Assembly: GCA_943736015.1 (NCBI GenBank)
Contig: OX031059.1
Span: 48,495,159-48,559,158 of the forward strand
Reading direction: 5' to 3'
Source: Tridacna crocea
Taxonomy: Eukaryota; Mollusca; Bivalvia; Cardiida; Cardiidae
Length of the DNA stretch: 64,000 nucleotides
Every line of letters starts with the position of its first letter. Position 1 is the stretch's first letter. Shown piece after piece: positions 31,750-62,809 of the stretch. The notes below the pieces were generated by a model that saw only the letters and a program-made list of their open reading frames with translations, was not told the origin of the DNA and did no database searches. Both the position numbers and the translations under genes were made by a program.

Positions 31750-34700
31750 GTAAGAGCCTCATTGTCCTCTTGTCCTGTCAGAGCCTTTGACTGTTTGTGT
31801 CGATATTACGGGTGTTGCTGTTATTAATATTAACTCATTACCAAACGACAAAATTTTAGAATGGTCCAAATTGAAAGCAATTGCCGATGACAAAAAGAAG
31901 TGAATGAAAGTTTGTAATTTGTTTTGTGAAAGGTAGAAAACATTGCGGGAACAATGTTTTTTAAAGGCCTCTTTCTCAGGGTTGTCAAAAGGAGAGGTTG
32001 TGTGTTAATGGGTTAACCGGCACATATGGGACGATTCATAATATCTGATACAGTTTCAAACCATACTAATTTTTGTTTGCTTGCACATACCTTGTTATAA
32101 TTTATATCACAACACACAACAAAAATTACAGTTTTGTTTGATATACAATGTTAGGTAATTTAAATACTTACTTGTTGAATAAAATATGTCAAGCTTTTTC
32201 TCAACGTTTACATGATCTGCTATATTTAACGTCTACTCTGGGTCATTGCGACGTCAAGCTTCTTTCGAAAGTCCGCCATCACCAATGAACACATTTCTAC
32301 GTTATTTTTCTCATCTGTCGACAAATAGCTGGTTTCAACTCTGATGCATCACCCTTTATGTGCAATTAGATCTTGATACGAACTCCCCTGCCTCACTTTC
32401 TTACTAACAGTCTAACACCAGATACATGTGAGCCATAGTTTGTGAAAAGTGAGTTGAATGCATCTGCAGAGCGTATTGACAACGGTCAGCCTGCGCAATT
32501 CAAGCAGGCTGGCCTGCGTCGATTTGTTTTGCTTTTTGTAAATTTTCTGTATGTCTAAGGAGTCTATCGCAGAACTCAGCCGGTGTAATGCAGAGAAATG
32601 ACCGTCCCCTACAAAATGAACAAATGGGTCATTTCATTACGAAGAGGAATGACCTGGGTTATTATTCCACGAAGAGAAATGACCCTCTGGGTCATTTCTC
32701 TACGTAGAATAATGACCCGGGTCATTTCTCTATGTTGTGAAATGACCAATGGGTCACTTCTCTACGAAGTGAAATGAGCCATGGGACATTTTGAAGGGGA
32801 GGGTCATTTCTCTGCATTACACCGGCTGTCAGACAAAATGGATTTTATGGTTGGTTCCAGGGCAGTGATGACTGCCATCGTATAATATTTCACAGAATAC
32901 ATTAGAGCCCTTTTTACCAGACCATGGCATAGATATAGGCCTACTGTTGAATCTTTGACTTATTTCATGAACAATCTTTCCACAGCAAGACAGAAGCTGA
33001 ATTTCTACAATTGAGTTTGTATATGGGAAACATTAATGTAATCGTTGTCAACCGGTCACGTGATCTTATAAATGGCGGCGCAACCGTCAGTCGTTTAGTA
33101 ACGACAAAAACAACTTCGTTGTTCAATGTTATTCACATCTATCTATCTTGTTTATCTATCTGTCGGTGAACTCTTCAATCGCAATCGATAAACCGTGTTA
33201 AAAATGGACGTAGCCTAAACTGTTTGTCAACTGAAATATAGTAAGAAGGATTTCGGCAGAAAATTTTTAAGTTTTCTTTTTTACGAGGAGCCTTATAAAG
33301 TTTCAGAAAGGTAAACCGCTCTGTTTCCGGTGAAATGACCCCCGTTAGAGAAATGACCCATGGGTCATTTCTCTACATAGAGGAATGACCTATGGTTCAT
33401 TTTTCTACGTAGAATAATGACCTGGGTAAATCCCCTATATAGAGAAATGATCTAGAGGGGGTCATTTATCTACGCAGAATAATGACCCGGGTCATTTTGT
33501 AGGGGAGGGTCATTTCTCTGCATTACACCGGCAATGAAATGTGTAGGTGCATATCAAGCTACCAGATACAGCCGAGGGACTTGATGGGCGCCATCAACCG
33601 AACTATGCCGAATGAGCGTATGCTATTCAACCGAATGGAAATATGACGTAATTTGCCCTGTAATTCTCACCCTTAACGCAGTATTTTGATGAATTGTTAA
33701 GTGGAGGAGGTACGCAACGGGGAATTACCGGTAAGAGCCGCATTAAATTTTGATGCAAAGCCCCCTCCTTTCCCCTAAACGTGGGGGTTAGAAGCGTGAA
33801 AGATAAAAAATTGTTGCATCAAATGAACATAATCGGTAGTGTTTTCAAGATCGTGAGTGGCTGCTGCGCCACTTGTTGGTATGCAGGTCTAACTTCTAGG
33901 TCATCTGAAGTAGAGACGTTAAAATCGTCGATAAAAAGGCAGGCTGACAGATCAAATCAATATCAACTCTGCCAGTAAAAAGTGGAGACTATACATCAAG
34001 GGTTCAAACTTCAGCAATGTTGTTAAGCCTAGGGTATTTCTTTCCCCAAAATCTACTTCTAAGACACTCCGAACGATTTTCACCGGGCCGGGTCCGTATT
34101 CACTGACCACTCTTAAGAATGTTCTTGGTCTCAGTCTCCAGAATTTTCTAAATCTGAAAGTAACGCAACTTCTGATTTGCTACACCAAATGGTTTAGCCA
34201 ATCAGAAGTTGCGTTACTTTCAAATCTAGCAATTCTTGGAGGATAAGACAAAGATCATAACATTGTTTGGTGAATATTTTCTTGATTTCAAGTGAAAAGT
34301 CATAATATCGTAAAAATGACGTTGACTTTTATCCTGTCCTAGTTAAAAGACTTAAATCGAAGACAAAATATCAGCCGCGTCGAAAGTGAACGTATTTGCA
34401 GACGACAAAAAAAAGAAAAACGTTGTGTAAAAAAAAAAATTGTTTTCTTCGCAAGGGTAGAAGCCATTGTGAAAAAAAGGAGAAAAATAATGGTTACCAG
34501 CATTTCTCCTTTTTTCACTATGTTTTCAAAAGCCCCTATTTTAAGCGTCATAATGACTGGGATAATTTTTACACAGGGATAACGGTCTAGTTTTACATTG
34601 ACGAAACTGACAGTTGACAGACAGACGTTTTCTTGGTGCTTTTAGTTAATCCTTTTCCAAAGGATCAAGACTGTTAACGACCCTGTTAAAGAAAGTATTG

Positions 34701-37700
34701 GAAACACCATGGGAAAAGCCGAAAATGTGGGTGCCCAAGCTGGTTAATCACAATTTTCGCTTTTCTCACAATGTTTTCTATACTGTCGTATAGAGTCTGA
34801 GTATTTGAGGGCAGTTTAATTTGTTGATTGCAGATGTTTTCTACAGAAAAAAGTAAATAATATTAAGTAGTTACTTCCTACAGACGAAATTTTAGGTCTT
34901 GAAAGGTACTCACACGCACACCAGTAGCGTAGATCAAGATATGACGTCACAGAACCTGCAGTCTGATCTTGGATCATCAATGTCCATTTGTTTATTTTAA
35001 AGATATGCTTGTGAAAAAAGTCCGGAAGGATATTTTGGTTTTCTGTTGGTTTTTACTTTTTGTTACAGATTAACTTTTTTGTATGCAATTCCGAGTTTCA
35101 TGATCTTTAGGGAAAAGTCTTATAAAAATATTTCAGGCAAAGGAGAAAATACTGCTACATGTAACTGGTATTTCTCTTTCCCTACATTGATACTTTTTTT
35201 CTAAGCACAGTCTGCATTATTTGTGCCACATTCACAAGTAATTTGCTATCTGCACATACCTTGGATCCAACATTTTGTCAAGAGTTATGCTATATCCTAT
35301 CTTGCCGAACTGATATCATTATCTTCTACAGAGAAAGCTGTAGTCGACTATATTTGCATGCATGAATCTTACGAAAACTGTACCTCAACATATTTATAGA
35401 GAACCGGAGAAGGTTGACCAAGACCAGAATTAGCATATGTGAAGTCTGATCTTGGTCTACGCTTCTTCCAAAAATGTATCCATGTAATTGCTTGATAGGA
35501 TAATAGACACATAACTGACGTTCATGAAGAAAATGATAATAACAACACTTGACACAAAAGGTAGGGAAGCACACGAGAAGACATCGAAGAGATTGCTTCA
35601 CACGGGACTCGCAGGACATTTATTATCTGTTATTAAAGATAATTTCCGGTCGTCGGGCAAAGTTTTGCTTAATAAACTTAGCTAAATTCGAAAGACTTTT
35701 CCTATTTCCACGTTTAACAATTTCACACTTGGGCGTTTATATAAAAACGGCGGTTTTCAATTCTACGCAAGCCTGTCAAACTATTAAATTATGGTATTCA
35801 TCGTCGATTTTTCTTTTCGCAAAAAAAGAGTAGATACGTAGATTTCCTTCCACACTGAGCAAGAATAAGGACTTAAATTGTTTTGTATGTACGTCTAGAC
35901 ATGACGGGGTTCTAATCAAAAGAAGTCAAAAGGCTTTCAACGGCAGCTAAAGGGATGCTTGTATAACGTGATTGAATTAATTAATTGAATAAATGGACAC
36001 ATACATAAGTCTAGATGTTTTCGGTAGAGTAAATAAATTGAAATAAAATGTAAGATTTTCTTCTCTCGACGGAAACAAATATCGAATATGGTGGTTTCAT
36101 GGGGAGTCTTAATATGTCGGACTAATTTGTAATAAGTGCACCACCATGATATGGCGCCAGTTTTTGTGCAGTATAATCTTGATCCGCATTGTTTTCAAAA
36201 CACACCAAATCACTTTTCTCACAATGATTTCTAAATGCTTCATTCTCAGAGTCGTCAAATGTAGGGACTATGTGGTAATGGGTTGAACAAAGTTGCTTCG
36301 AACAGCTTTAGAAAAACCATAACAGAAGACGAATAATCACCGAAAACATTAAGGTTTTTATATATTGATAAATCTAAATACAGAGTAGCCAAACGAGAAA
36401 TCGCTTGTTAATACTGTATCAAATTGAGTCTTGTTTCTAGATTATTTTTGTGGACTATTTGGCGCTTTCAGTGATATAATTTCTTTTACCACAATGTTTT
36501 GTATACATTTCAGCAGCAGATCGAAAATGTCGTCTGCATGAGAAAGCGTGTTCTAAAACGTGATACAACGTTAAATGACGTTATGGTACTTGATGTCATA
36601 CGCAGTGAAGGAAGAGTATGGTACTTAATTTCACCGTGATGTCAGATTGACATTTTCTTTAGTGTTACGAGAGACCACTCCTTCATGCATGGCTTCATCA
36701 CAGTTTATATGCAATACCTCGTTGTCTGCGCATGTCATATTCTTCGAAGATTCGACCTGTTGTCTGCGCATGTCATATTCTTCGAAGATTCAACCTGTCT
36801 TATATGACGCATCACTAGCCCCGAAAGCGGGCAGATGTAATATTACACTCTATAAAGTAGCAATGTAGAAAATATTATCAATACGTTTGAGGAGAAATGA
36901 GACCTGCTTTAGCTCCAGATTTCTCTAAACTGCTGATCATAGCTGACCGAATTGCACGAGGTAGCGTTTTATTGAGTAAACGGTTATTTTAGTTTGAAAT
37001 TCAAAGTAGCGGTTGTCACATAGGAAAGTGGTTCAGTTCTGTACCCAAGATACCCAAATTAGATAGATGAGTATTTATAGAATGCCATCTAGTGGGAGAT
37101 AATGTACAACACCTAACAACTACGTCAGGGAGTATTCTCTTTAGCTCAGTCATTATGGTGTTGGCCTTTCGTCCTGGCGTTCTAGGTTCGAACCCTGCTT
37201 GGTCCCTGTATTTCTTCTATGCTTTTGTTCATGTTTCTTTGTTAGGGACTTTGTTCATAAGAACAGAGTACAAACTATATGAGCCATGTTCTATGAAAAG
37301 GGTGACTTAATACATCTGCAAAAAGTATCGACCCAGGCCAGCCTGCGCAATCCGCGCAGGCTGGCCTATGTCGAAACTTTTTGCTATTGGTAAATTTTCT
37401 CCATGTCAAGCGACCATTTTTCATGCAGATCTATTCGATTATTGGACTTAATGGATTTCATTGATCAATCATTATGTGAATTATTGCTTAGTATGATGGA
37501 TATCGATTAAACCTTCTTTTGCCAGAGTGTGGTTCGTGTAGATTTACTAATCTACTGGCGTTTATTTTCTTGATGGGGATTAGCTTGAAGTCCTTGTGCG
37601 CCATTACTATAACACTCGAGCTCTTTTGACGTCTGAATAAAATCTTCTAAGATCAAAAGGGTTTTTATCTTAAAGGCATGATTAAAAATAAGCGAGCCGA

Positions 37701-37758
37701 CATGAGCATGATTAAAGATCAGATTACATATCCTGGGCAAGAAGAGGAAGAAGAAGAA

Positions 37759-37790
<32 letters not shown>

Positions 37791-40700
37791 GAGAGAGAGA
37801 TGGGGAATATATATATTTATATATAATATACATGAAAAAAATCAAGTGGTGCCAGTTCAAGGATATCATATGGAGTGCAACACGCGAAAAGGTGCATTCG
37901 GACATTTGCGTAAAGTGTCGTCTCGGATTAGCCTGCGCAGTCCGCACAGGCTAATCCGAGACGGCACTTTACGACTACATTAGATTTTGTGCTACAGTAG
38001 ACTTGCGTAAAACAGAAAATCACATAAAATCGGGAAGTGTCGTTTCGGATTAGCCTGCGCGGACTGCGCAGGCTAATCCGGGACGACACTTTACGCAAAT
38101 GTCCGAATGTACCATTTCGCGTGTTGGACTCCATATAATAAAGAAGAACAACATACCATGGGAGTCTATATCAATAGCATTTATTGCATCTGCGAAAAGT
38201 ATCGGCAGTCCGCGCATTCTGACCTGAACCGAATCTTTTCGCTGTTGGTCAATTTTCTGTATGTCAAAAGACTTTTCGACCCCATGATTATGTCGGTTAT
38301 TAACTCTTTACCACACGAGAAAATTTTAGACTGGTCCAAATTGAAAGCATTTGCAGACGAAAAAATTAAGGTGACTAACAAATAGAAATTTGTTCTGGGA
38401 AGGGTAGAAAACACTGTGGGAAAAGGAGAAAATGCTGGTTACCAGCATTTTCTCCTTTTCCCATAGTGTTTTCAAAAGGCTTCTTTCTCTGGGGCGTCAA
38501 AAGTAGGGATTGTGTGGTAATGGGTTAACAAAAAAAAGAAAGAAAAAAAACGGATACTATGAAACCATGCGATGGCTTTTTTGGTACCATGGATCACTGT
38601 AATGCATTAAGCCTCATTTTTCCAGAGTATGGCTCATGCATATTTAACCCATTACCAGGGTTCCAATATTTTTTACATATTTGTATTGAAAGCGTTTGCT
38701 TACACCAAGACTGTATAACGTTGCAGCTCTAATTCTTCAATTTGTCATCAATTGGTTGAAATATATATCAGAAAAAAAGAAATTGCTAGCAGAGGGTTAA
38801 ACTAAAACAAATTTGGCTACTTTGGCTTGACATCCTGCGTGTGTACCATTATTCTCTGAAGTTTAAATTATACCTCAGAAAAAAAGAAATTGCTAGCAGA
38901 GGGTTAAACTAAAACAAATTTGGCTACTTTGGCTTGACATCCTGCGTGTGTACCATTATTCTCTGAAGTTTAAATTATACCTCAGAAAAAAAGAAATTGC
39001 TAGCAGAGGGTTAAACTAAAACAAATTTGGCTACTTTGGCTTGACATCCTGCGTGTGTACCATTATTCTCTGAAGTTTAAATTATACCTCAGAAAAAAAG
39101 AAATTGCTAGCAGAGGGTTAAACTAAAACAAATTTGGCTACTTTGGCTTGACATCCTGCGTGTGTACCATTATTCTCTGAAGTTTAAATTATACCTCAGA
39201 AAAAAAGAAATTGCTAGCAGAGGGTTAAACTAAAACAAATTTGGCAACTTTGGCTTGACATCCTGCGTGTGTACCATTATTCTTTGAAGTTTAAATTATA
39301 CCTCAGAAAAAATGAAATTGCTAGCAGAGGGTTAAACTAAAACAAATTTGGCTACTTTGGCTTGACATATTACGTGTGTGTTTATTCTCTGAAGTTTGAA
39401 GTTTGTGATAGAGTTAAACGAGTCCGTCTCCATGGATGACTTCACGTAAGCGGAAAATCATACATACAACAATTTTGTCTGGATCAAAGAATGACATGAA
39501 AATAAATTGTTTTTTAGATGTAAGGTCGATATTTTCTGATGAATGTTCCAAACAAAGCTGTTATATATTAGTAAACAATCGTATTTTCGGGACAAAGCCC
39601 CGAACGTCCATTAGCCGCCCAGATTGTCAAGATAAACATATTTATAGGGAATCAAACTTTGTCGGTTAGATCTCGTATTGTATCTAGTTTCCACTTTCTT
39701 ATTCTCAGTGGTCTCTGTCTGTGGGTCCGCTGGGCTTTCGGTCAAGACGGACAGTGTGAACGTATGATCAGACACTGTCTTATAATCTGAACCACATTGA
39801 CCACTTTCTGTCTCTCTCTGTCTCTCTCCATTTATCCATAACCCTCCCACCTATCTACCTATCTACCCGCTCACCCTCACACCCACCCACGTACCTAATT
39901 GTCTCGGTCTCTCTCCATTTATCCACAACCCCCTCACCTACCTACCTATCTAAATACCTGCTCACTCTCACACCTACCCACCCACGTACTTTTTTCTCCG
40001 CCTCTCTCCATTTATCCACAACCCATTCACCTACCTACCTATCTACTTACCCATTCACCTTCACACGCACCCACACACACACCCACGTTCATACCTACCT
40101 ATCTACCTACATACCTACCTACTGTCCAATCGCATCAGATGTAAATGAATACGCCATCCCCTCTTCTCCATCCTTCGCAGTTCTGTTCTATTCACTTAAA
40201 ATCTATTTACCTATAAATCTGTCTGTCCAGTCATCATTCAGTCCCTTTATCCCTCTGTCTATCTATCCGTCTACACAATGTTTTTCTCCTAATCCGATTT
40301 GCGACTCAATTACATTGTCAGAAATCAATTGCATCGTGTTTGATTTGACGTTATTAAATGTCTGCCCAACCTAGAGGGGTGTCTGTCGCTAATAAGCCAT
40401 GTAGCCCCAAGTCAGTCTTGTTCACAGATAAAGTACAAATCTTAATTACAAAAATGTAATTATTTTGGTCAGGAGGTCTCGATCTCTTTGGCTGCAAAAG
40501 ATCGTTGGATAGTGGCTTGATTTGCAAATCAATTCATGGACAGAAGGATGGACAGAATTTTAGACGGACGGATGGATCGATGGATGGACTACAGAATGAA
40601 CGATGACTTGATGAAAGAAGTAATTATTACTTTTTAAGACAGTTCTCGAGATTCACGGCATTGATTGATTGTATATATCGTCAGTTTACTTCGAAAACCT

Positions 40701-43700
40701 CGTAACTACAGCTTGTCACAAGCTGTAGTTACGTGGTTTTTAGAAGTAAACCGACGATATTCATGAATTGATTCTTGAATAGGATCATGCAACGATATGA
40801 AATACCAGGGCACTCTTTTACATCCTTTTAATTCCAACAATTAATATCTATTTCTTCCAACTCTTTCTCTGTCCTTATGTTCGCATGCCCAAGGAAATTT
40901 CAAAAAGAACGGTCTTTATTTCATGCTTTCCGGTAGGATATCGAGAAATAGCAGTGAAAATATTTTTCGATCTTACACTGGTACCACCAGTGAAAATACC
41001 GATTTTCACGTTCTTGTTGCCTAGGTATTTTGCGCGTGCCTAACAACCAGATGGGAAATATGACGTCATATACCTTACATTTCTCGCGCTTGACGTAACG
41101 TTGCTATGCGGGAGGGGTACGCCACGGGGAATAAGGGAAAAGAAATGTACTGAATTTTGATAAAGCTCCTCCCAGAAAGGGTAAAAAGCATGAAATAAAT
41201 AGAATATTTGTTTTTTTCGGTGAAAGATCTCGAAATTTATTTCATCTCGTGAACACCATCGGTAATATTTTCACTCGTGGCTGCGCCACTCGTGAAAATA
41301 TTACCGATGGTGTCCACTCGATGAAATAAATTTCGATCTTTCACCGGAAAAAACAAATATCCTCTATATCTGCTTTGCGTTAAAGTGAGACAAGTTTAAA
41401 TATTTTATACTTTCCACGTAGGTAGGATACACTACAAAATGTTAATTTGTCTTCTTGAAAATAATCACCATACAGATTTAATGCTTTAATGAAGAAAACA
41501 AAGAAAAGAACTGAGCATATGCTTGGGATAAATGACGTATAAAATTGAACGCGAAAAAGTTGCCATCCATCTAGATCAATCAATCAAACACGACTGGCAA
41601 TGCAAAATATAAACTGTGTTCACAACTTATGGCCGGTGTAATGTCAGAAAAATGACCCTCCCCTACAAAAAGACCCGGGTCATTATTCTACGTAGAGAAA
41701 TGACTCAAGAAATCATTTCACTACGTAGGGGGATGACCCAGGTCATCATTCTACGTAGAGAAATGACACCAGAGGGTCACTTCTCTGCGTAGAATAATGA
41801 CCCAGGTCATTCCTCTACGTAGAGAAATGACCCATGGGTCACTTAACTACATAGAGAAATGACCATGGGCCATTTTATAGGCAGTGTCATTTCTCTGCAT
41901 TACATTGGTGTATCTGTTTACAACAAGCCAGTTAATGGTGAACTAATACTTTGACAATATTTGCATGATAATGCACATATTTTTGTAGAATGAAATCAGT
42001 TAGCTATTCATAATTATGTTCCTCACAAATATATATTCGTTTGATCAGCAGAAAAGCTTAACAGTTAACCTGCTAAGCGCGACACAGGGACCTTTTGGGG
42101 ACAATTTAGATCAAGATCAGACTGTACAAAACGTGCCGTCTGATCTTTGATTTAAACTGTCTGATAGATATGTATTATTCTTTCCCCCCCCCCCGCCCCC
42201 CACCCCCCCCCCAAAAAAAAAAAAAAAAAAAAAACTTTGAAATAGCAAAATTCGGGATTTTACTATCGGTTCTGAAGGTTTCATTTCACTTACTTAAGAG
42301 GACAAGGGTTAATAACGTACTCAGTTTGACGAAGATCAAATTACTTCTGTAGTGCTTTCGCAGAAGTTTCGAGTAGGTTTATAGTTGAAGAATTTCAATC
42401 TTCCGAAAGGCAGAGGCTCAATGTGACAGACAAAAATAAGCACAGAGTGATTCAGAGAGGGAAAGAAAAATCAGTTTCAATTTACCGTTTGTAGTGAGAC
42501 GCTGACAAACGAGCATATACTGTAAATTCTCATTATCTTGACCCAGATTCACTCAGGGTATCCATTAATGTCATCAAAAGCAAACGATCCACGAGATTCT
42601 AGAACAGACTTTTCTTTTTAAAGAGTATGTGATGTTCGTTAAAAGTTTTCCTCATACATAGAAATATGGCAGACAGGAAGCAATGCAGCGTTTTGACGAT
42701 GACGATAAAAGTTCACAGTTAAAGACTGAAAATTTAAATAACTACTACATATTATTTTATAAACCATGATATATCCTCTTCTTGAGATATGTAACGTTTA
42801 ATTATAAAATAAACACAAACTTTCGGCGATACAACCGCCTTCTTCAAGTGTGATCCTGTGATAGAATGCCTGCAGTAATCTGCAGGCATTCTATCACAGG
42901 ATCACACTTGAAGAAGGCGGTTGTACCGCCGAAAGCTTGTGTTTATTTTATAATTAAACGTATCATTTTATACTTGTATATGTGACCCATATTTAGCGCC
43001 TTAGTAGATTATGGTTATATTAAGTACTTTGATTATAAGTTTGGTTGGTTGTCTCCCTTTTTTTTTGTTCGGACATTACCTTTGCTGATACACGATAAAT
43101 ATGCTTAAATAATCTCGTCTTGTTATTGAATACTTCCCTATGGCGTAGTCTGTTTATTGAACCTACTGCACCCGGTTGATCTAAATATCAAACCATTTGA
43201 TTGAATGTAAAATTGTCCTCTCGGTGCAATAAAAGGATTCGTCGATACTTTATTGTATGTACAGATAAGTTTACCAGCACTTTTTATTGGCTGTAAATTT
43301 GTTCTTACCAGATATTGGACAGAAATTCCGAACCCATGTTTGACAGATTTGATGGATGATCTTTTATTTAATGCCCAGTGTTTACCTTTTTATCATCGTT
43401 ACTGTCGTTATGCCTTGAAATATTACTTGGTAAGCATGCCAACAAAAGGCACGTGACAATGTTCAGTCAGAATGCTACTACATCTAGCCAATCGAATGTC
43501 AGGATGACAACCTCCGTCGCATCTACATGTATTTCCGTATTGTGCCATAGTTTATCTCGAAAAGATATTTCTGTGAATTGTTCAGATTGGTGCTCTTTGT
43601 GTTTGTATGATTACATTATTATTTGTTAGTAACTGTTTAAAGGACAAAACTTACAGACGAGTTAAATATTATAAACGATATACAGTTATAAACGATATTC

Positions 43701-55700: not shown

Positions 55701-58700
55701 AGAGATTTAGATGCTATATTGCTGTTTCGAATACCATGCAGTTGTTGATTCCAACCTTCTACAAGTGCCCTTCGATATAAAAACAATGCCCCAAACTGAA
55801 GCAGTTTCTTTGGAGGTCTAATGCATTAGCAATAAAAGAGACCATTTTCTGTAAATGACTGTACCTTCACAGTCTCTATGTACAGGCTGTATGTCATTTA
55901 TTTTATCTCATTTACAAATATTTTTTGTAACAAAACCTTCCATGTTCTCAGTGTAAAATACACATTACGATTTTTCTTATCTTAAACACGTTTAATATCA
56001 CATTTGTGTGACGTCAATTTTGAAGTCATTTTGTACGTATTGCATAGAAGTGAATGGGTCTTATCTCCCGCTAGATGTCATTCTACAAATACTTATCTAC
56101 CTAATTTGGGCATCCTGAGTACATAGGCGGACTACTTTTTACGCGAAAAACATTACTTTGAATTTCAAACTAGAATTAACGTTTACTCAATAAAACGCTA
56201 GTTGTTGCGATTCATTCAGCTATAATCAGCAGTTAAGAGAAATCTAGAGCCGAAACAGGCCTGATTTTTCCTCAAACATATTGATAAAAGCCATTTTCTC
56301 CATTGCTACGTTATAGCGCGTATTATTACGGCCTTCCCAAAATCGGGGATAGCGACGCGTCATATAAGACAGGTTGGATCTTCGAAGATTATGACATGCG
56401 CAGACAACGCATTTAATCTATGTTTTGTGAAATGTCGTTATGTGATAAAAAGAATCTGACATTCGTGGACGTCTGAGATAAACTTTTATTAAACTTGTCG
56501 AGGGAAAATGTTATTAAGCTTGCCAAAGGCTTGCTTATAACATTTCCCGTGACTCGTTTAATAAAATCTTATCTCAAAAGCCCACTCATTTCAGATCCTA
56601 TATACCTTTATCATACGTTGGCAAGTGTAAGCTATGATGTTCGATAAAGGAAATTTCACTGCGAAAAAGAACATTTGAATAACAGTCTTAAATTATAATA
56701 AACGTTAGATATGTGATAGTATGATTTTGCGAGCCCTTTACAATCCCGTATTTTATAGACTTTATGGAACATGAGAAGAAAGGCTTTTGTAAATATTATA
56801 GGAAAAAAAATGCTGGTAACACCCGTTTTCTCCTTTTCCTGCAATGCTTTCTACTCTTTCAGAAACAAATCTAATCATTGGATCTACAATTATCTTATCG
56901 TCTGCAATTGTTTTCAATATGGTCGAATCCAAATCGTGTCGTCTGGTGAACAGTTAAACTGGCCTTTCAACAAGACGGTTTGTCTGATATCAATGTAATA
57001 ATAACCACAACGTTGTCAAGTAATGTAAGACTAACCGGAAGTGATTTAGCAATATGACGCGGTCTTATAACACAAGGCTAACCGGAAATGATAATATCAA
57101 TATGACGTTGTCTCGTAATACAAGGCTAACCGGAAATCATGCATCCCAAACGTCAATTTCTTTCTCTAATTAAGTTCCATGATTGTACGTCAAACACGTG
57201 GAGTTTATCGCTTTTCATTAATTACGGAAAGCTTGGACCATCATGAAAGTCAAATAAAACGAAATCGAATCGTTAGGCAAACGGTGTTAACAGGACATTC
57301 TGTCCACCATAAAGCCAGTTCCATCAAAAACGTATAAATGCCAAACAATTGGAGGATATCCAGGTCAGTGAGAGAAACCCAGATATTCAAACTTTCACTG
57401 CCTTTTATGGACCAGAAAATCTCGAAGAGTATCAATCAGCGTGTAGCCAAGACTACATAATCTTAGACTTGTCCAAATTCAAAGCATATGCAGACGACTT
57501 GTACTTTGTGGCTTTAAAGACGGAATTTGTCTTTAACATGGTTGAAAATATTTTAGGGAAATGAGAAAATGCAGGTTAGCATTTAACTATCTTAACAAAA
57601 CGGGGCCCTGACAGTGTCTCAAAAGGTCCAATTTGTCCTTTATCTGACGTAGACTGTTTTTGAACAAATATGTGAATTTGCACATGCACAGAGTTTAACA
57701 AACGACAAAATTTCAGACTGGTCCAAATTCGAAGCACTTGCAGATGACAAAATAAACACAACTCAAACATTGAAATTTGTTTCCAGCATGATAGAAAACA
57801 TTGTGGGAAAAGGAGAAAATGCTGGGTACCAGCATTTTCTCCTTTTCCCACAGTGTTTTCAAAAGGCTTCTGTCTCAGGGTCGTAAAACCAGGGATTGTT
57901 TGGTAAAGGGATTAAAGAGTTAAGGTCAAAAGTAAACGTCTGTTGCATGTCAGTTAACTCCGAGGCTGCCAGGCCCTACTCAATGACCTTTGGCTGTCAG
58001 TGTAGATTAAGATCAGACTGCATAGAACTAGCGATCTGACCTTGGATCTACTTTTTTGTTTTGTTTGTAGTCAATTTTGAAAACGCAGTAGGTGAGTTTT
58101 AAATACTGGGTGGAAATTTTTGTTTCGTTTATTTTTTTAGCTTTTAACTCTTTACCCCATAAGGCATTTCTATGGTATCACTAATTGACCCTAAATAACA
58201 GCAAGGATGAAGCTGTTTCTTATGTGTATATGAAACCTTTCGATAGCATAGAAAACATGGTGGCAAAAGGTGAAATTGCTCGTCACGAGCAATTTCACCT
58301 TTTGCCACAATGTTTTCCAAAGGCTCATACAAGAAATGCGTAGAAATGAGTAAAGGGTTAAGGCTAAATATTTGCTGTGTTCATTGTATGACTTGTTAAT
58401 TATTAGGCAGTCCATACAGATCCAGGTCGCGGGCAGCGCAGGTTGACCTGGTTAACTTTTAAAGATGATTCAAGTCCCCTCTTTCACAAAGCACGTGTAA
58501 TATGCTTGTGACATAGCGACATCTGTCCGTGTTACTCAACACGACAGGATTAAGTTTGATTTTCTTTTTTTAAAAATGATAAAACTGTTTTAAAAAAATG
58601 AATCTAGAGAAATCTTAATACTTCCTGTAGATAACCTGAACAGTATTTCTTTGTTAGTGGCGGTGTGCTCTATACAGCAATCATGGTGTTGTTTTGAAAA

Positions 58701-61173
58701 AAAGAAAAAAAAATATTTATTGATGGCTGCTAATTCAAACACTTTAATTTAAGACAAACACTCAAATCCGCAATATTACATAATCAACCGGCACCGTTAT
58801 TTCCACTCCCAAGTAATTTTTACACAATCTTATTAGATCTGTCTTTAAAATCTGATTACACATGGTGAATTGACCCTTTCAACGCAATAGGAGAAAGCAG
58901 AGTTCTTTTGCGGAAAACATAGATCAAGATCAGACGGCACAAAACGCACGGCCTGGTCTTAAATCTGTACTCGCGCTCGTTTACTGAAGTCTACAAGATA
59001 ATTTGTTTCTAAGTTTCCAGTAAAAACATTTTCAGCCTTTGATAGAAGTCAAGTGTTTCTTCCTTTTGTCACATGATCCGATTTTAGACTCCTCCAAATT
59101 GAAAAGCATTCACAGATAACATAATTGCAATTGTCTCAAATGGTGGAATTTGTCTTTCAAAGGGTAGAAAACATTGTAGGAAAAGGAGAAAACGCTGGTT
59201 ACCAGCGTTTTCTCTTTTTCCTACATTGTTTTCAATAGACCTCTTCCCCAGGGTCTTATAAAGACGGGATTATTTGGTGTAGGGTTATGTGTTTTTGCGC
59301 CGTCAGCGACGTTCAACGATTTCACGTCAAGTGCACACATTGCCTCCTGCAGAGGACCTGATTTTGTTAAATTAATCTTAGGACCACTTTCGAAAACAGT
59401 TTGGCAAAAGGAGAAATTACTGTTATGATATGTTATGACCAGTTTCTTCTCATAATTTGCCATGATATCTTCTTCTATATTCCTTTACTAAGTCCTAGTT
59501 CGTGTTGCTTGTTTATAAAATGGCCTCACTTTGGTAATAGGTGGTTACATGTATCTCAGTGATACATTAGATGATTGGTTGGTTGTAATGGGGTTTAACC
59601 CTTTCCCAAACAATCCCTGGGTCTTACGGGTCAGGACTAGAAGCCTTTAGAAAGCATTGTCGGAAATGGAGAAAATGCTGGTTAAATGCTGGTAACCAGC
59701 ATTTTTTCCTTTTCCCACAATGCTTTCTGTCCTATCATAGACAGAAATCATCCTTTCAGCAAGAGTTGAATTGTCGTCTGCAAATGCTTTCAATTTGGTC
59801 TAGTCCAAAAATTTGTCGTTTGGGAAAGGGTTAACGCCACTTTAATAGCTAAGATCATATCATGGCGGTTGGTGACGCACATGTGTTTCATGGCTTTCTC
59901 ACGCCGGTAGTTACACTACTTTCTTTCCAAAAGACACCAACTACTTTTCTCACATGCTTCAGATGAGGTGAGAGGCGAAAATACGCCGGAATGAAAGTTC
60001 GCCTCAAGCGGGTATCGAACTCACAACCACCAGGTCATGAGTCCGACACGCTCACCACTGAGCCACCCGGGCGGGCACATTAGATAGACGTCATATAACT
60101 AGGAATCAATTTAACTCCATTTAATTCATTACCAAACGACAAAAAAAACTTTTAGGCTTGTCCAAATCAAAAGCATTTGCAGACGACAAAACAAAAGTGA
60201 CTGAAAATTTGAAATTTGTTTCGTGAAGGGTAGAAAACATTGTGGGAAAAGGAGAAAATGCTGGTTACCAGCATTTTCTCCTTTTCCTACAATATTTTCC
60301 AAAGGCTTCTTTCTCAGGGTCGTCAAAAGCAGGGATTGTGTGGAAATGGGTTAATGAAGTCTGATAATTGTATAAATATGAAGGACCAATCGTCCTTGGA
60401 AATGCACATAATGATTAAAAAAAATAGCAAAAAGCATCGATTCACGTCATCCTGTACAGTCTGCACAGTCTGACAAAGGTCCATACTATTTGCAGATGCA
60501 TTAAGCCCCGTTGTCTGCGCATGTCATATTCTTCGAAGATTCGACTGTCTTATATGACGCATCACTAGCTCCAAAAGCGGGCTGACTGTAATATTACGCT
60601 CCATAAATTAGTAATGTAGAAAATAGCTTTAATCAATACGTTTAAGGAGAAATGAGACCCGCTTTAGCTCCATATTTCTCTAAACTGCTGATCATAGCTG
60701 AGTGAATTGCACGAGGTAGCGTTTTATTTGGTAAACGTTTATTTTAGTTTGAAATTCAAAGTAGCGGTTGTCGCGTAGGAAAGTGGTTCGGTTGTGTACC
60801 CAGTATGCTCAAATTAGATAGATGAGTATTTATAGAATGCCATCTAGCGGGACATAATGCATTAAGCCCGGTTTGTACGGGGCATGTTCTGCATTTATGT
60901 CTTTAAACCGTCAACTGCACATTCTTTCGAGGACTGTCATGTGTTAATTGCGTCTTTGATAGAAAGCATTATTTCATAGCTAAATCTATTAATGGCTGCC
61001 GGAGGGACAGATATTGAAGATTACCGTGAGAAAATTTGGGATCTTTGTCAATTATCACTTTTTTAACGAATGCTCTGTTCACCATCCCATGAATTCGGAA
61101 TTGCGATGCAAAAATGAAAAATGGTAAGGCCCTGAGTTATACTAACATAGAGTAAAACATTAGCAGCTTAAAC

Positions 61174-61228
<55 letters not shown>

Positions 61229-62809
61229 TTAGGCAAGTAGACGGGGGAACAGGCAGGCAAACAGACAGAGAGCTAACGAACTAACGGCAGGGAGAATGAA
61301 AGAAGGGAAGGAAGGAAAAATGAAAAAAAATCCACAGCAAAACAATTGAAGAAAATTTTCAATCGGTAAAGGAACGAACCTAGATAATCAAATGTTGAAG
61401 TTTTGTGATCAGTGTGGATCCAAGACTGCTGGTCTTGTTGGCCCCAAACAGTTTTTCTCTGCAAATAAGATATCTCGGTCTCCAAAGTGTGAACAACTTT
61501 TATAGGGGATAGTTGCATTCAAATCCTGATATACACTCTCTGTAAAACATAACAGTATTTCAATGGCTGCATGTGGATTTTTAATTTATAAGAGATGAGT
61601 TAGAAATAGACAGTGTTGGTTGGTTGTATTGGGGTTTAACGCCATTTTAACAGCTAAGGTCATATCATGGCGGTCGGTGACGCACATGTATTTCCTGGCT
61701 TTCTTACACCGGTACTAACACAAATTTCTCACCGACTACTTTTCTCACTTGCTTCAGCAGAGGTAAGAGGCGAAAATACGCCGGTGTAATGCAGAGAAAT
61801 GACCCCCATTACAAAATGACCCATGGGTAATTTCTCTACGTAGAGGAATGACCTATGGGTCATTTTTCTACGTAGAGGAATGACCCGGCTCATTATTCTA
61901 CGTAGAGAAATGACCCCATGGGTCATTTCTTTACGTAGAATAATGACCCGGATCACTTTTCTAACTAGTGAAATTATTTCTGGGGTCATTTTTCTACGAT
62001 GACCCGGGTCATTTTGTAGGGGAGGGTCATTTCTCTGCATTACACCGGAAAGAAAGTTTCGCCTCAACCGGGTATCGCACTCACAACCACCCCGTCAAGA
62101 GTCCGACTCGCTCACCACTAAGCCACCCGGGCGGGAACATAATTATAAAGTGAGCTTTATGAAAAGGATGAAAAGGAGGTTTAATGCATCCGCAAAAAGT
62201 GTCGACTCAGATCAGCCTGTGCCGTTTGTGCAGGCTAACCAAGGCCGATTCTTTTCGTATTGGTCGATCAGTTGTCCACAGCATAAAGTTTATCCCATGA
62301 ATCAGTTGATATAGTTTCATGGATCAATAATCACGTGACTTGCTTGGTTTAATACATGAAATGCGTTTAGCTTCCTTTTGCCAGAGCTTAAGTCGTTATG
62401 GTCTGCAACACGCAAAAAGGGGCATTCTGGTATTGGCGTAAAGTGTCGTCTCGGATCAGCCTGCGCAGTCCGCGCAGGCTGATCCGAAACGACACCTTCC
62501 GTTTTTATGTACGAGTAACTGTCTGTTTTGCCCAAAGTCTTCTGAAGAACAAAATCTAATGAAGACGTAAAGCGCTGTCTCGGATTAGGCTGCGCGGACT
62601 GCCTAGGCTGATCCGAGACGACACTTTACGCAAAATGTCCGAATGCCCCTTTCCGCGTGATGCGTTATTATCATGTGTCTATTTCAGTTTGCAGCGTTCT
62701 TCTCCTACATCTGGAAGTTTGGGGAGTTTCTCTGTAAGAGCGTTCACTACATCCAGAATGTGTCCTGTATCTGTTCTGTCTCGACCTTGACCTTCATGAG
62801 CCTTGAAAG
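31474..62809 (+). CDS. Class A (rhodopsin-like) neuropeptide-type GPCR, first two coding exons
   Basis: Exon 1 (31474-31749) and exon 2 (62688-62809) join in phase 0 and give 132 residues plus the first two bases of an Arg codon; the gene runs off the right edge. Seen: extracellular N-terminus with sequons at Asn9, Asn14 and Asn19; TM1 (about 36-60) with the class A G-N pair (Asn53); TM2 (about 71-91) with the LASAD motif (Asp81); the W-x-F-G loop (Trp101); the conserved Cys108 at the top of TM3; and TM3 ending SLER, the E/D-R-Y box. TM4-7 are missing. Known family role: ligand-activated G-protein coupling at the plasma membrane. The CVPVK/FGEFLCK region fits a peptide receptor, but I cannot name the ligand. 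The intron is 30,938 bp and is filled with repeats. The ATG at 31474 is the first in-frame ATG. Confidence 0.85.
31830..32016. mobile_element. TTAA-type MITE at the start of the GPCR intron, core deleted
   Basis: TTAACTCATTACCAAACGAC to TGTTAATGGGTTAA. The palindromic core has been excised (CATTGCGGGAACAATGTTTT). It begins 80 bp after the exon 1 donor. Confidence 0.85.
32420..32560. mobile_element. GTCAGCCTGCGCAA single-hairpin repeat
   Basis: GTGAGCCATAGTTTGTGAAA, then a hairpin CAGCCTGCGCAATTCAAGCA / GCAGGCTGGCC, then TGTAAATTTTCTGTATGTC. Sister copies are at 37270, 38165, 62150 and 62940. Confidence 0.7.
32584..32821. mobile_element. ATGACC/GGTCAT hairpin-array element, copy 1
   Basis: Flanked by CCGG (32580-32583 and 32822-32825). 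The ends are TGTAATGCAGAGAAATGACC and its inverse. The interior is a chain of short palindromic blocks such as AATGACCCGGGTCATT joined by TCTACGTAGA. No coding capacity. Confidence 0.85.
33050..33617 (+). mobile_element. Dispersed repeat, copy 2, interrupted by an ATGACC-array element
   Basis: Homologous to 22142-22480. Homology stops at TGTTTCCGG (33330) and resumes at CCGGCAATGAAATG (33528), on either side of the inserted element. Confidence 0.75.
33331..33527. mobile_element. ATGACC/GGTCAT hairpin-array element, copy 2
   Basis: Bounded by CCGG (33327-33330 and 33528-33531). The left terminus has lost about 10 bp (TGAAATGACC), while the right keeps TTCTCTGCATTACA. The interior has the same ACGTAGA-linked palindromes. 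Confidence 0.85.
33640..33880. mobile_element. Decayed copy of the CACTCGTG hairpin foldback family
   Basis: Keeps ATATGACGTAATTTG, GAGGTACGCAACGGGGAATT, TCGGTAGTGTTTTCAAGATC and GTGGCTGCTGCGCCACTTGT, which align with 41060-41300. The second hairpin arm is missing. Confidence 0.65.
34148..34229. repeat. Palindrome, arms AAGTAACGCAACTTCTGATT
   Basis: CTAAATCTGAAAGTAACGCA and AACTTCTGATT are repeated inverted as AATCAGAAGTTGCGTTAC and TTTCAAATCTAG around a TGCTACACCAAATGGTTTAGCC loop. Confidence 0.88.
34340..34585. mobile_element. TTAA-type MITE, diverged
   Basis: CGTATTTGCAGACGACAAAA, core AAAATAATGGTTACCAGCAT, TTTTCAAAAGCCCCTATTTT and GACTGGGATAATTTTTACAC remain. Confidence 0.65.
34645..34845. 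mobile_element. TTAA-type MITE, diverged
   Basis: Starts TTAATCCTTTTCCAAAGGAT; a left arm with GACCCTGTTAAAGAAAG, a core broken around CCCAAGCTGGTTAATC, and TTTTCTCACAATGTTTTCTA follow. A related scrap lies at 35095-35288. Confidence 0.6.
36669..37265 (+). mobile_element. tRNA-derived SINE (same family as 9166), interrupted by another element
   Basis: Leader ACGAGAGACCACTCC, A-box-like TTAGCTCAGTCATTATGG, B-box GGTTCGAACCC, tail GGGACTTTGTTCATAAGA. A 387-bp SINE-like element is inserted in the leader at 36720-37106. Confidence 0.8.
36712..37114 (+). mobile_element. SINE-like 350-bp family, copy 1, nested, with 8-bp duplication
   Basis: CAATACCT (36712-36719) and CAACACCT (37107-37114) flank the insert; the sister SINE at 9166 has a single CAATACCT here. 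The insert starts GTTGTCTGCGCATGTCATAT and ends CATCTAGTGGGAGATAATG. A 39-bp stretch at its start is tandemly duplicated (36721-36797), unlike other copies. Confidence 0.82.
37270..37415. mobile_element. GTCAGCCTGCGCAA single-hairpin repeat
   Basis: ATGAGCCATGTTCTATGAAA, hairpin GGCCAGCCTGCGCAATCCGC / GCAGGCTGGCC, then TGGTAAATTTTCTCCATGTC. Confidence 0.75.
37741..37800. repeat. GAA / GAT / GA microsatellite
   Basis: (GAA)n runs into (GAT)n and then (GA)n. The acidic reading frame across it is an artefact of the repeat. Confidence 0.95.
37868..38137. mobile_element. GCCTGCGCAG double-hairpin MITE, intact representative
   Basis: Ends ATATGGAGTGCAACACGCGA and its near-perfect inverse. Two hairpins, ATTAGCCTGCGCAGTCCGCA / AGGCTAATCC and TTAGCCTGCGCGGACTGCGC / AGGCTAATCC, flank a spacer ATTAGATTTTGTGCTACAGT. 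About 270 bp, no coding capacity. Other copies: 29377-29790 and 62396-62665. Confidence 0.88.
38165..38280. mobile_element. GTCAGCCTGCGCAA-type repeat, degraded hairpin
   Basis: ATTGCATCTGCGAAAAGTAT, a broken hairpin (CAGTCCGCGCATTCTGACC) and TTGGTCAATTTTCTGTATGT. Confidence 0.55.
38300..38528. mobile_element. TTAA-type palindromic MITE, intact
   Basis: TTAACTCTTTACCACACGAG to GTGTGGTAATGGGTTAA, core ATGCTGGTTACCAGCAT inside CACTGTGGGAAAAGGAGAA / TTCTCCTTTTCCCATAGTG. TTAA on both sides. Very similar to the copy at 63130. Confidence 0.92.
38644..38800. mobile_element. 157-bp TTAA-flanked repeat (third type)
   Basis: TTAACCCATTACCAGGGTTC at the left, GAAATTGCTAGCAGAGGGTTAA at the right. The centre resembles a MITE right arm (ATTGAAAGCGTTTGCTTACA). 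Its last part is the start of the tandem array that follows. Confidence 0.55.
38766..39406 (+). repeat. 107-bp tandem array, six near-identical units
   Basis: Unit starts fall at 38872, 38979, 39086, 39193 and 39300, exactly 107 bp apart, with a partial first unit at 38766. Each unit contains GAAATTGCTAGCAGAGGGTTAA and the flank CTTGACATCCTGCGTGTGTA. Very few substitutions are seen until the last unit. Confidence 0.95.
39813..40120. repeat. Pyrimidine-rich (CTAC/CTAT)n satellite with about 105-bp higher-order unit
   Basis: Three blocks, each with TCTCTCCATTTATCCA(C/T)AACCC, then (CTAC)(CTAT) tetranucleotides, then CACACCCACCCACGTAC. Confidence 0.85.
40681..40760. repeat. Palindrome, CGTAACTACAGCTTGT core, copy 1
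   Basis: TTTACTTCGAAAACC and CGTAACTACAGCTTGT pair with ACAAGCTGTAGTTACG and GGTTTTTAGAAGTAAA; followed by CCGACGATATT. Sister copy at 44748. Confidence 0.9.
40919..41365 (+). mobile_element. CACTCGTG hairpin foldback element, copy 1
   Basis: Starts TTTCATGCTTTCCGGTAGGA; contains an ACTGGTACCACCAGT palindrome and, at about 41225-41345, a hairpin whose arms read AAATTTATTTCAT, ACCATCGGTAATATTTTCAC and CGTGGCTGCGCCACG at the turn. A nearly identical copy lies inverted at 51175-51622. Confidence 0.88.
41637..41904. mobile_element. ATGACC/GGTCAT hairpin-array element, copy 3
   Basis: Left flank CCGG (41633-41636); right flank TTGG, a changed CCGG. Ends TGTAATGTCAGAAAAATGAC and TTTCTCTGCATTACA. 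The interior is repeated CTACGTAGAGAAATGACCC blocks in both directions. Confidence 0.85.
42065..42312. mobile_element. GATCAGACTG hairpin TTAA family, intact copy
   Basis: TTAACCTGCTAAGCGCGACA to GAGGACAAGGGTTAA, TTAA on both sides. The hairpin is ATCAAGATCAGACTGTAC / GTGCCGTCTGATCTTTGAT. It contains a long C then A run (42184-42235). Confidence 0.85.
42793..42961. repeat. 170-bp near-perfect palindrome, AACCGCCTTCTTCAAGTGTG arms
   Basis: ACGTTTAATTATAAAATA, CAAACTTTCGGCG, CCGCCTTCTTCAAGTGTG and ATCCTGTGATAGAATGCC are all repeated inverted, turning at CTGCAGTAATCTGCAG. A relative with a longer turn lies at 54249. Confidence 0.93.
42962..43759. other. Intron stretch, no gene or repeat recognised
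   Basis: Small ORFs at 43253-43456 and 43378-43629 overlap in different frames and match nothing I know. Confidence 0.4.
43760..43860. mobile_element. TTAA-type MITE, left half only
   Basis: TTAACCAGTTACCACACAATC through GTGGGAAAAGGAGGGTGAGG; broken in the core. Confidence 0.75.
44748..44822. repeat. Palindrome, CGTAACTACAGCTTGT core, copy 2
   Basis: GTCGGTGTGCTTCCAAAACC plus TCGTAACTACAGCTTGT and their inverse. The core equals that at 40681, while the outer stem differs in both arms together. Followed by the same CGACGATATT motif. Confidence 0.9.
46305..46533. mobile_element. TTAA-type MITE inside the 5.7-kb element
   Basis: TTAACCTTTTACCACACAAT to GTTTTGTAGAGAGTTAA; core eroded (GGAAATACTAGATACAAGCA). 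Confidence 0.8.
46560..46782. mobile_element. TTAA-type palindromic MITE inside the 5.7-kb element
   Basis: TTAACCCTTTACCACACAAC to TGTGGTAATGGGTTAA, core ATGCTGGTAACCAGCAT. TTAA on both sides, 27 bp after the previous copy. Confidence 0.9.
47150..47297. mobile_element. TTAA-type MITE, left end lost
   Basis: TTTGTTTCCAGCAGGGTAG, core AAAATACTGGTTTCCAGCAT (stem mismatch), right end GTCGTAAAAGGGTTAA. Confidence 0.75.
47312..47438. repeat. Palindrome with CAAGTGATTTCGTATTGGCC arms
   Basis: ATTAATCAAGTGATTTCGTA and TTGGCCCAGTTACAGGTC are repeated inverted; the turn holds GGTCAGCCGTATTGATCC with a partial second match. Confidence 0.9.
47700..49149. other. Interior of the 5.7-kb element, no gene recognised
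   Basis: Contains a short hairpin at 48697-48750 (CAAACCCCTGTGAACCCCAC / GTGGGGTTTGCAGGGGT) and AACCGCCTC/GAGGCGGTT at 48801. No open frame above about 60 codons. Confidence 0.4.
49150..49460. repeat. 300-bp inverted repeat inside the 5.7-kb element
   Basis: ATGCAAGTGTTTGCCTTT, TAGCGGTATGCAG and GAAGCATGGTATACGATGGA pair with TCCATCGTATATCATGCTTC, CTGCATACTGCTG and AAAGGCAAACACTTGCAT. Confidence 0.88.
51175..51622 (-). mobile_element. CACTCGTG hairpin foldback element, copy 2 (inverted to copy 1)
   Basis: Reads GAGGATATTTGTTG at the left and TCCTACCGGAAAGCATGAAA at the right, the reverse of 40919-41365. The hairpin at 51201-51310 keeps the TGGCTGCGCCA turn. Confidence 0.88.
52038..52187 (+). 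repeat. Direct tandem duplication, about 74-bp unit, two copies
   Basis: AACAATACCGGCTACATAAA...GTGTAGTTTGGGCAG occurs twice with a handful of substitutions. Confidence 0.9.
52434..52808 (+). mobile_element. SINE-like 350-bp family, copy 2, with 9-bp duplication
   Basis: CTTCCCAAA at 52434-52442 and 52800-52808 flank the body, which starts GTTGTCTGCGCATGTCATAT and ends CATCTAGCGGGAGAT. Confidence 0.85.
53218..53429. mobile_element. GATCAGACTG hairpin TTAA family
   Basis: TTAACTGTTTGGTTGCTGAG to CAGCAGGATAAGGGTTAG; hairpin AGATCAAGATCAGACTGTAC / GAAGTCTGATCTTGGATCT. Confidence 0.82.
53701..53821. repeat. Imperfect palindrome, CAGGTG...GGGGACTTGGA arms
   Basis: CAGGTGTCAGGGGACTTGGA pairs with TCCAAGTCCCCTTCCACCTG; the inner stem also pairs in part (GTGGTGAAACATGTTCCC region). 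Confidence 0.75.
54249..54440. repeat. 190-bp palindrome, relative of 42793
   Basis: TTACAATAATGTACACAAGC, CAACCGCCTTCTTCTAGTGT and GATCCTGTGATAC are repeated inverted. The turn is extended by GTTCAGTT...AACTGAAC and CCTTGG. Confidence 0.92.
54441..56044. other. Intron stretch, no gene or repeat recognised
   Basis: Short overlapping ORFs only (54451-54738, 55010-55348 minus); none resembles a known family or carries GPCR transmembrane motifs. Confidence 0.4.
56045..56412 (-). mobile_element. SINE-like 350-bp family, copy 3, inverted
   Basis: Reads CTTATCTCCCGCTAGATGTC at the left and TCGAAGATTATGACATGCGC at the right, the reverse of copies 1, 2 and 4. No clear target duplication. Confidence 0.82.
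56475..56575. repeat. Palindrome with GAGATAAACTTTTATTAAAC arms
   Basis: The arms pair with GTTTAATAAAATCTTATCTC; the inner stem GGGAAAATGTTAT pairs with ATAACATTTCCC around AAGCTTGCCAAAGGCTTGCT. Confidence 0.88.
56733..56956. mobile_element. TTAA-type MITE
   Basis: GAGCCCTTTACAATCCCGTA to CGTCTGGTGAACAGTTAA; half of the core stem changed (AAAATGCTGGTAACACCCGT). A scrap of another copy lies at 57456-57595. Confidence 0.78.
57692..57915. mobile_element. TTAA-type palindromic MITE
   Basis: GAGTTTAACAAACGACAAAA to GTTTGGTAAAGGGATTAA, core ATGCTGGGTACCAGCAT. Confidence 0.85.
57955..58080. mobile_element. Fragment of the GATCAGACTG hairpin family
   Basis: TTAACTCCGAGGCTGCCAGG, then AGTGTAGATTAAGATCAGAC and ATCTGACCTTGGATCTAC; the right half is lost. 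Confidence 0.65.
58143..58361. mobile_element. TTAA-type MITE with a variant but still perfect core palindrome
   Basis: TTAACTCTTTACCCCATAAG to GAGTAAAGGGTTAA, TTAA on both sides. The core at 58262-58308 reads GGCAAAAGGTGAAATTGCTC / GAGCAATTTCACCTTTTGCC: several bases differ from the usual core, each matched in the opposite arm. Confidence 0.85.
59061..59287. mobile_element. TTAA-type palindromic MITE with compensated core changes
   Basis: Core ACGCTGGTTACCAGCGT and outer stem CATTGTAGG / CCTACATTG, against ATGCTGG..CCAGCAT and CATTGTGGG / CCCACAATG elsewhere. The ends are decayed (GTGTAGGGTTATG). Confidence 0.8.
59564..60085 (-). mobile_element. tRNA-derived SINE (second family) with 9-bp duplication, interrupted by a MITE
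   Basis: ACATTAGAT at 59564-59572 and 60077-60085 flanks the SINE. On the minus strand it begins GCCCGCCCGGGTGGCTCAGT (A-box), then GGTTGTGAGTTCGATACC (B-box), a body with CATATCATGGCGG-type sequence reading the other way, and the tail GGGGTTTAAC...GGTTGG. The CCGG at 59986-59989 is uninterrupted. A MITE splits the tail at 59595-59834. Confidence 0.9.
59595..59834. mobile_element. TTAA-type palindromic MITE nested in a SINE
   Basis: Host GGGGTTTAACGCC (as in the SINE at 61616) is split into GGGGTTTAA and TTAACGCC, which shows a 4-bp TTAA duplication. Ends CCCTTTCCCAAACAATCC and GTTTGGGAAAGGG. The core has a small duplication (GCTGGTTAAATGCTGG). Confidence 0.95.
60121..60354. mobile_element. 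TTAA-type palindromic MITE, intact
   Basis: TTAATTCATTACCAAACGAC to TGTGGAAATGGGTTAA; TTAA on both sides; core ATGCTGGTTACCAGCAT. Confidence 0.92.
60496..60869 (+). mobile_element. SINE-like 350-bp family, copy 4, with 13-bp duplication
   Basis: ATGCATTAAGCCC at 60496-60508 and 60857-60869 flanks the body GTTGTCTGCGCATGTCATAT ... CATCTAGCGGGACATA. The duplicated sequence belongs to another repeat (compare 38600 and 63410). Confidence 0.9.
61176..61228. repeat. (GA)n microsatellite followed by G run
   Basis: About 45 bp of GA dinucleotides ending in nine G. Confidence 0.97.
61229..61615. other. Intron stretch, no gene recognised
   Basis: Purine-rich start (GGCAGGCAAACAGACAGAG); the 81-codon minus ORF here is low-complexity and unrecognised. 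Confidence 0.4.
61616..62135 (-). mobile_element. tRNA-derived SINE (second family), copy 2, interrupted by an ATGACC-array element
   Basis: Tail GGTTGGTTGTATTGGGGTTT, uninterrupted TTTAACGCCATTTTAACAGC, then a body split at CCGG (61781-61784) and resuming at AAAGAAAGTTTCGCC; head AGCCACCCGGGCGGG at the right. Confidence 0.88.
61785..62044. mobile_element. ATGACC/GGTCAT hairpin-array element, copy 4, nested in a SINE
   Basis: CCGG at 61781-61784 and 62045-62048. Ends TGTAATGCAGAGAAATGACC and GGTCATTTCTCTGCATTACA are perfect inverses. The interior alternates ATGACCCATGGGT-like and CTACGTAGA blocks. Confidence 0.93.
62150..62290. mobile_element. GTCAGCCTGCGCAA-type single-hairpin repeat, degraded
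   Basis: TTAATGCATCCGCAAAAAGT, hairpin ATCAGCCTGTGCCGTTTGTG / CAGGCTAACC, then TATTGGTCGATCAG. Confidence 0.65.
62396..62665. mobile_element. GCCTGCGCAG double-hairpin MITE next to GPCR exon 2
   Basis: TATGGTCTGCAACACGCAAA at the left, hairpins GATCAGCCTGCGCAGTCCGC / AGGCTGATCC and GATTAGGCTGCGCGGACTGC / AGGCTGATCC, right end CGAATGCCCCTTTCCGCGTG. It ends about 25 bp before the exon acceptor AG at 62687. Confidence 0.85.
62688..62809 (+). CDS. GPCR coding exon 2 (extracellular loop 1 and TM3)
   Basis: Acceptor GTGTCTATTTCAG, donor GAAAG/GTGGGT. It encodes FAAFFSYIWKFGEFLCK then SVHYIQNVSCICSV and ends SLE plus two bases of Arg, the phase at which many peptide GPCRs split the E-R-Y box. No further exon is seen before 64000. 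Confidence 0.85.

Follow-up and report, generated by a model that had tools for sequence, protein, structure and literature searches.

Hairpin-array elements of Tridacna crocea as probable Ginger1-type MITEs with a preference for CCGG-like target sites

The window analysed here, a stretch of 64,000 nucleotides of Tridacna crocea contig OX031059.1, carries exons of the RNase P/MRP subunit POP1 (10143-10478 and 18034-19281), an exon of a rhodopsin-type receptor (31417-31827) and four copies of a short element. Two of the copies lie in repeats that have an uninterrupted sister within the window. The copies and sisters are:

22214-22484, + strand: sister of the repeat that holds copy 2, itself uninterrupted; its one CCGG, at 22393-22396, is the empty site; alignment gapped near the site
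32584-32821, no strand assigned: copy 1, 238 bp, both 20-bp ends intact; CCGG at 32580-32583 and 32822-32825
33331-33527, no strand assigned: copy 2, 197 bp; CCGG at 33327-33330 and 33528-33531
41637-41904, no strand assigned: copy 3, 268 bp; CCGG at 41633-41636 on the left, TTGG at 41905-41908 on the right
59828-60080, + strand: sister of the repeat that holds copy 4, itself uninterrupted; its one CCGG, at 59986-59989, is the empty site
61785-62044, no strand assigned: copy 4, 260 bp, both ends intact; CCGG at 61781-61784 and 62045-62048

The earlier note had described four copies with TGTAATGCAGAG-type ends and hairpin interiors, and their positions and flanks proved to be as claimed, with CCGG on seven of the eight sides. 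Since CCGG is rare in the window (77 sites, 0.0012 per position), its presence at these flanks is not due to chance. Copy 4 is inserted in a SINE-like repeat; copy 2 has a left end that is short by about 10 bp and begins TGAAATGACC. When the window copies were aligned, mean column identity was 78%, with 8-base flanks counted in. Terminal inverted repeats extended over 42 bases at 95% in copy 1 (7 flanking bases included) and over 25 bases without mismatch in copy 4 (4 of them belonging to CCGG). Comparison of the arms over their outermost 40 positions gave 35 identities in copy 1, 36 in copy 4, 32 in copy 3 and 25 in the damaged copy 2. The hairpin interior is also far from chance: single-strand folding of the two copies tested gave z = -19.1 and -13.2, and none of 200 shuffles was as stable. 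A 12-mer, AGAGAAATGACC, lies in the element end and is repeated in the interior in both orientations, matching at up to 2 substitutions 9-11 times per window copy versus 6 times in the rest of the window. The interior is built as an array of ~31-bp palindromic units, each of which holds two inverted copies of this 12-mer. The lengths of 38 copies (20 rows of a contig-1 sample, 14 pairs from the genome-wide end listings and the four window copies) had a 31-bp period with a vector strength of 0.51, which 2 of 2,000 uniform random sets equalled, and included a cluster near 173. Divergence from the class consensus averaged 9-10%, as judged from 32 copies of the ~268-bp class, mostly picked for similarity to copy 3, and 6 copies of the 173-bp class. 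Conservation scores were higher at the ends (0.95-0.98) than in the interior (0.87-0.89), in part by construction because rows were required to have ends within 3 substitutions.

To place these copies in their genome, the 1.05-Gb assembly (31 contigs) was searched for the exact 20-base end, which occurred 4,686 times (2,376 + 2,310); the reversed control occurred 0 times. CCGG stood immediately outside 2,637 of the 4,686 exact ends, or 56% (1,310 + 1,327), and 1,978 of these CCGG-flanked ends (75%; GCCGG 999 + 979) had a G before the CCGG. Among the CCGG sites of the window, 12 of 77 are preceded by G. The commonest letters outside the four bases were T and G on the left and C and A on the right, and these preferences indicate that the wider target reads TGCCGGCA. 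The "fixed CCGG duplication" proposed earlier must therefore be given up, since CCGG is found at only that fraction of exact ends and matched pairs of AGGG, CAGG, CCTG and CCCG occur. What is observed is a strong preference for CCGG inside a palindromic TGCCGGCA-like site, a preference and not a rule. Outside this genome the exact end had 0 matches in viral contigs and 0 in genome contigs, a set that holds no relatives of this animal.

The flanks of complete copies were tabulated by pairing left with right ends, up to 3 substitutions being allowed in each, which gave 59 rows. They were drawn from 40 scored relatives of copy 3 (of 3,127 first-look candidates), picked by similarity, from the 30 end matches that come first on contig 1, picked by position, and from the window; a copy stayed unpaired if one of its ends was missing, more diverged or too far away (for instance L012, L028, L034, L036 and L038 of the 40). 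Four rows were removed, namely L084 as a segmental duplicate, L093 because its right end already served another row, and L029 and L014, in which the paired ends belong to neighbouring or tandem copies; addition of window copies 2 and 3 brought the sample to 57 copies. The left flank was CCGG in 32 copies and the right flank in 31; 21 copies had it on both sides and 15 on neither. The number of CCGG flanks is somewhat underestimated, because ends were placed without gaps and any indel within an end displaces the four bases that are read (in L004, ACCG where the sequence has CACCGG). The earlier note would have abandoned its proposal if most copies lacked CCGG on one or both sides. Taken literally this is the case, 36 of the 57 being without it on at least one side, yet 92 of the 114 ends differed from CCGG by no more than one substitution and 109 by no more than two. 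Left and right 4-mers were identical in 25 of the 57 copies (permuted mean 17.9, p = 0.00075), and identical pairs other than CCGG numbered four (AGGG, CAGG, CCTG and CCCG; permuted mean 0.49, p = 0.00065). Where both ends were exact, in 12 copies, five had CCGG twice, two another matched 4-mer and five unlike flanks.

The central claim made earlier, that an element with inverted ends inserts and that a single 4-base site thereby becomes two, was borne out by empty sites. When the SINE sister was aligned to the flanks of copy 4, the overlap was exactly 4 bases, 59986-59989, and two more sister copies in fetched loci (L073 and L037) span the same junction. The second site cited, near 22142, did align, although it is weaker evidence because 5-base gaps lie on both sides of its CCGG. 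In all, 14 insertions had matches spanning the joined flanks, of which L032, L093 and L094 were left out, only their own or an overlapping locus having matched. For the remaining eleven, the flanks were aligned after the right one had been shortened by 0, 2, 3, 4, 5, 6 or 8 bases. With 4 bases removed, ungapped alignment to paralogous empty sites was obtained for 44 of 48 matches at L007, 24 of 32 at L077, 8 of 8 at L099 and 4 of 8 at L025, a few being counted twice because some fetched loci overlap; each of the six other lengths gave 0 or 1 ungapped match at these four insertions. The others were weak or uninformative at this cut (L091 1/4, L071 2/7, L098 0/34, L020 0/2, L014 0/2 and the two window sites 0/3 each). 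L098 did best with 6 bases removed (6/34; 3/32 with 8), and copy 4 gave 1/3 with 5; for this copy a length difference of one base, a few positions right of the site, disturbs the strict alignment. No doubled 4-mer, the other finding on which the earlier note would have abandoned its proposal, was seen at the informative empty sites. The 4-mer in the ungapped empty sites was CCTG in 7 of 8 for L099 and TCTG in 22 of 24 for L077, which is flanked by CCTG; for L007, flanked by CCGG twice, it was CCAG in 16 of 44 and CCGG in 1 of 44. These sites indicate that the target need not be CCGG. The target duplication is 4 bp at four informative insertions of the eleven, one of them a CCTG site.

Two much longer sequences carry the same ends:

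C1:4940639-4944359: E1, 3,721 bp, with the element's ends and CCGG on both sides
C1:9983752-9986488: E2, 2,737 bp, with the element's ends and CCGG on both sides

Their inverted repeats are ~416 bp long at 80-82%, and the parts common to E1 and E2 match at 83-92%, the longest of them at about 90%.

The earlier note knew of no familiar DNA transposon superfamily with a fixed CCGG duplication. Bao, Kapitonov and Jurka (2010, PMC2836005) had in fact already reported one with a CCGG-specific 4-bp duplication, Ginger1. According to that paper, the target of Ginger1 is highly specific (CCGG 75%, CCGT/ACGG 24%, figures based on 112 Hydra elements), the ends are TGTNR, and the inverted repeats measure about 40-270 bp; a family is described in the mollusc Aplysia, and lancelet is noted to have a few non-autonomous copies whose ends are the same. 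The Ginger1 transposase has a Gypsy-integrase-like core (H2C2, DDE, GPY/F), often with an OTU or Ulp1 domain, and 4 bp is given in the literature as the characteristic duplication of Ginger1. The element studied here is like Ginger1 in its 4-bp, mostly CCGG duplication, its inverted repeats and its TGTNR 5' ends (TGTAATGCAGAG...). It differs in its looser target (56% of exact ends, versus the published frequencies), in an interior that is a palindromic array, in the inverted repeats of E1 and E2, which exceed the published range, and in that a transposase with these ends was not found here, an absence that in the MITE itself is expected. Since the element agrees with Ginger1 in its ends and in the length of its duplication, and loosely in its CCGG preference, we conclude that the four sequences are probably copies of a short non-autonomous Ginger1-type DNA transposon family (MITEs). 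A new superfamily is not called for. An abundant repeat of this genome is thereby placed in a known group, and its CCGG flanks are explained.

Other molluscs offer parallels: a mollusc survey lists 98 Ginger elements (PMC10294476), and an oyster satellite is labelled DNA/Ginger1 in PMC8268682. Ginger-type elements are thus already known in molluscs. Satovic and Plohl reportedly described in 2013, judging by the title, tandem-repeat-containing MITEs of the clam Donax trunculus, which would share with ours a short, non-autonomous form and an internal tandem array. We found no description of the present family in the literature searched; Repbase, Dfam and most subscription journals lay outside that search, and the family may therefore be already catalogued.

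The earlier note had also called for a search for an autonomous element with the same ends. In the part of the genome searched there was no transposase with these ends, and membership in Ginger1 consequently rests on the ends and the target. E1 and E2 contain no recognisable gene in the frames scanned (six frames of the middle 1.8 kb of E2 and ten frame pieces of E1, leaving aside the middle 681 bp of E1 and two reverse frames of L089), where no Pfam match passed the cut-off (best E = 0.054). A sub-terminal landmark of E1 gave 211 first-look candidates, 40 of which were scored, and a second landmark was present at 93 places. A pair of landmarks 12.7 kb apart was rejected as a partner, the 4 kb that were read looking by eye like a BEL/Pao retrotransposon. 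In pairs 6.5 and 5.3 kb apart, the longest open reading frames in the 1.9 kb read of each were 78 and 144 aa, and the sequence was partly E1-like (94% and 91%), the remainder being unmatched or repeated. A class with ~950-980 bp between the sub-terminal landmarks was also set aside, as the one member read, L107, proved to be an E1-like end with a ~870-bp insertion.

Searching by domain, we obtained 40 matches to OTU; at the 30 loci scanned for ends there were scattered imperfect matches and no CCGG-flanked pair. Pfam analysis of 10 open reading frames from 10 of these 30 loci found one, L044, with integrase plus OTU. L044 (C3:50119336-50122816) is an open frame of 1,160 aa that encodes an integrase core and an OTU protease domain and has a repetitive tail; its next best relative is 47% identical, and when its protein was compared with all loci fetched by then, only L044 itself matched. 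It was rejected as the partner because the 6.8 kb around it contain local palindromes but neither the element's ends nor inverted repeats enclosing the frame; it is possibly a domesticated or orphan transposase gene. Its integrase had 1,995 candidates in the genome, of which 113 were scored; three further integrase frames among these were discarded because by eye, judging from their motifs, they looked like Gypsy polyproteins. Three matches passed the cut-off in the Ulp1 search, and the open frames containing them were 99, 105 and 63 aa long. A separate open frame, L052:1465-3438 on C16, combines DDE_1 transposase, Psq helix-turn-helix and OTU protease domains.

The mover might instead be another integrase-like or DDE transposase that makes 4-bp duplications, either a Ginger relative outside Ginger1 or one of PHIS type. 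This would accord with the failure to find a Ginger1 transposase in the stretches read, with a target looser than the published one (the matched CCTG, CCCG, CAGG and AGGG pairs) and with the fact that 4-bp duplications are possible in other superfamilies. According to PMC2836005 and PMC10045372, Ginger2/TDD has TGTNR ends and a duplication of 4 or 5 bp, both of which it shares with our element, and an AT-rich target, RTATAY, which does not agree with the CCGG-like sites found here. Polintons make 6 bp, and the combination of TGTNR ends, a 4-bp duplication and a CCGG preference is the published signature of Ginger1 (PMC2836005). On balance we regard a different transposase as unlikely.

That the copies are solo LTRs or a small LTR retroelement, with TG...CA ends and a duplication of 4-6 bp, is very improbable. 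Such ends and a short target duplication are typical of LTR retrotransposons too, and Ginger1 ends are said in PMC2836005 to resemble those of Gypsy; against this, the ends of our element are long inverted repeats (window copies 1 and 4, and E1 and E2). The self-reverse-complementary CCGG makes CCGG-TGTAAT...ATTACA-CCGG read as one longer inverted repeat, but the notion that CCGG belongs to the element's own ends, without duplication, has practically no chance of being true and is already refuted by the empty sites, given the 4-base overlap of the SINE sister with the copy 4 flanks, the restoration of the sister sequence on cutting exactly 4 bases at four informative insertions, and the existence of matched flanks other than CCGG.

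If the copies are Ginger1-type MITEs, a Ginger1-type integrase-like DDE transposase supplied in trans would bind the inverted ends TGTAATGCAGAGAAATGACC and join them to both target strands four bases apart, and repair of the gaps left by this staggered joining would yield the 4-bp duplication. The ~31-bp units of the interior could serve as extra transposase-binding half-sites, or could be a by-product of hairpin-driven replication slippage; gain or loss of whole units would give stepped element lengths. We tentatively put forward, as a rather doubtful extension, a Ginger-type MITE lineage in which the interior has become a modular array of half-sites to which the transposase itself binds, with whole ~31-bp palindromic units gained and lost, the target has widened to the palindrome TGCCGGCA with tolerated substitutions, and the transposase is possibly an integrase-like enzyme outside Ginger1 proper. 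A palindromic site wider than the four duplicated bases is what is expected of a symmetrical integrase complex, and with thousands of insertions the target choice of such a transposase becomes measurable. The stepped lengths likewise make it possible to ask whether a MITE spreads better when its binding sites are repeated.

A 30-base landmark of the long relatives was found on one strand four times, ~25 kb apart, on C14 (29935883-30010742), and likewise on one strand 21-27 kb apart on C16 (34118425-34145907 and 35963662-36006266) and 24 kb apart on C9 (7381209-7405113). These spaced landmarks on C14, C16 and C9 may reflect a larger unit carrying the element. L107, with its ~870-bp insertion, is the only place read on C9; its left flank matches that of L079, and this common flank adjoins what appears by eye to be a Penelope-type reverse transcriptase. 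On a smaller scale, element ends occur in tandem at L014:801-1395 (C7), in 107-bp steps, and at C1 14840289-14840449, in 47-bp steps, and look as if the MITE were seeding a satellite.
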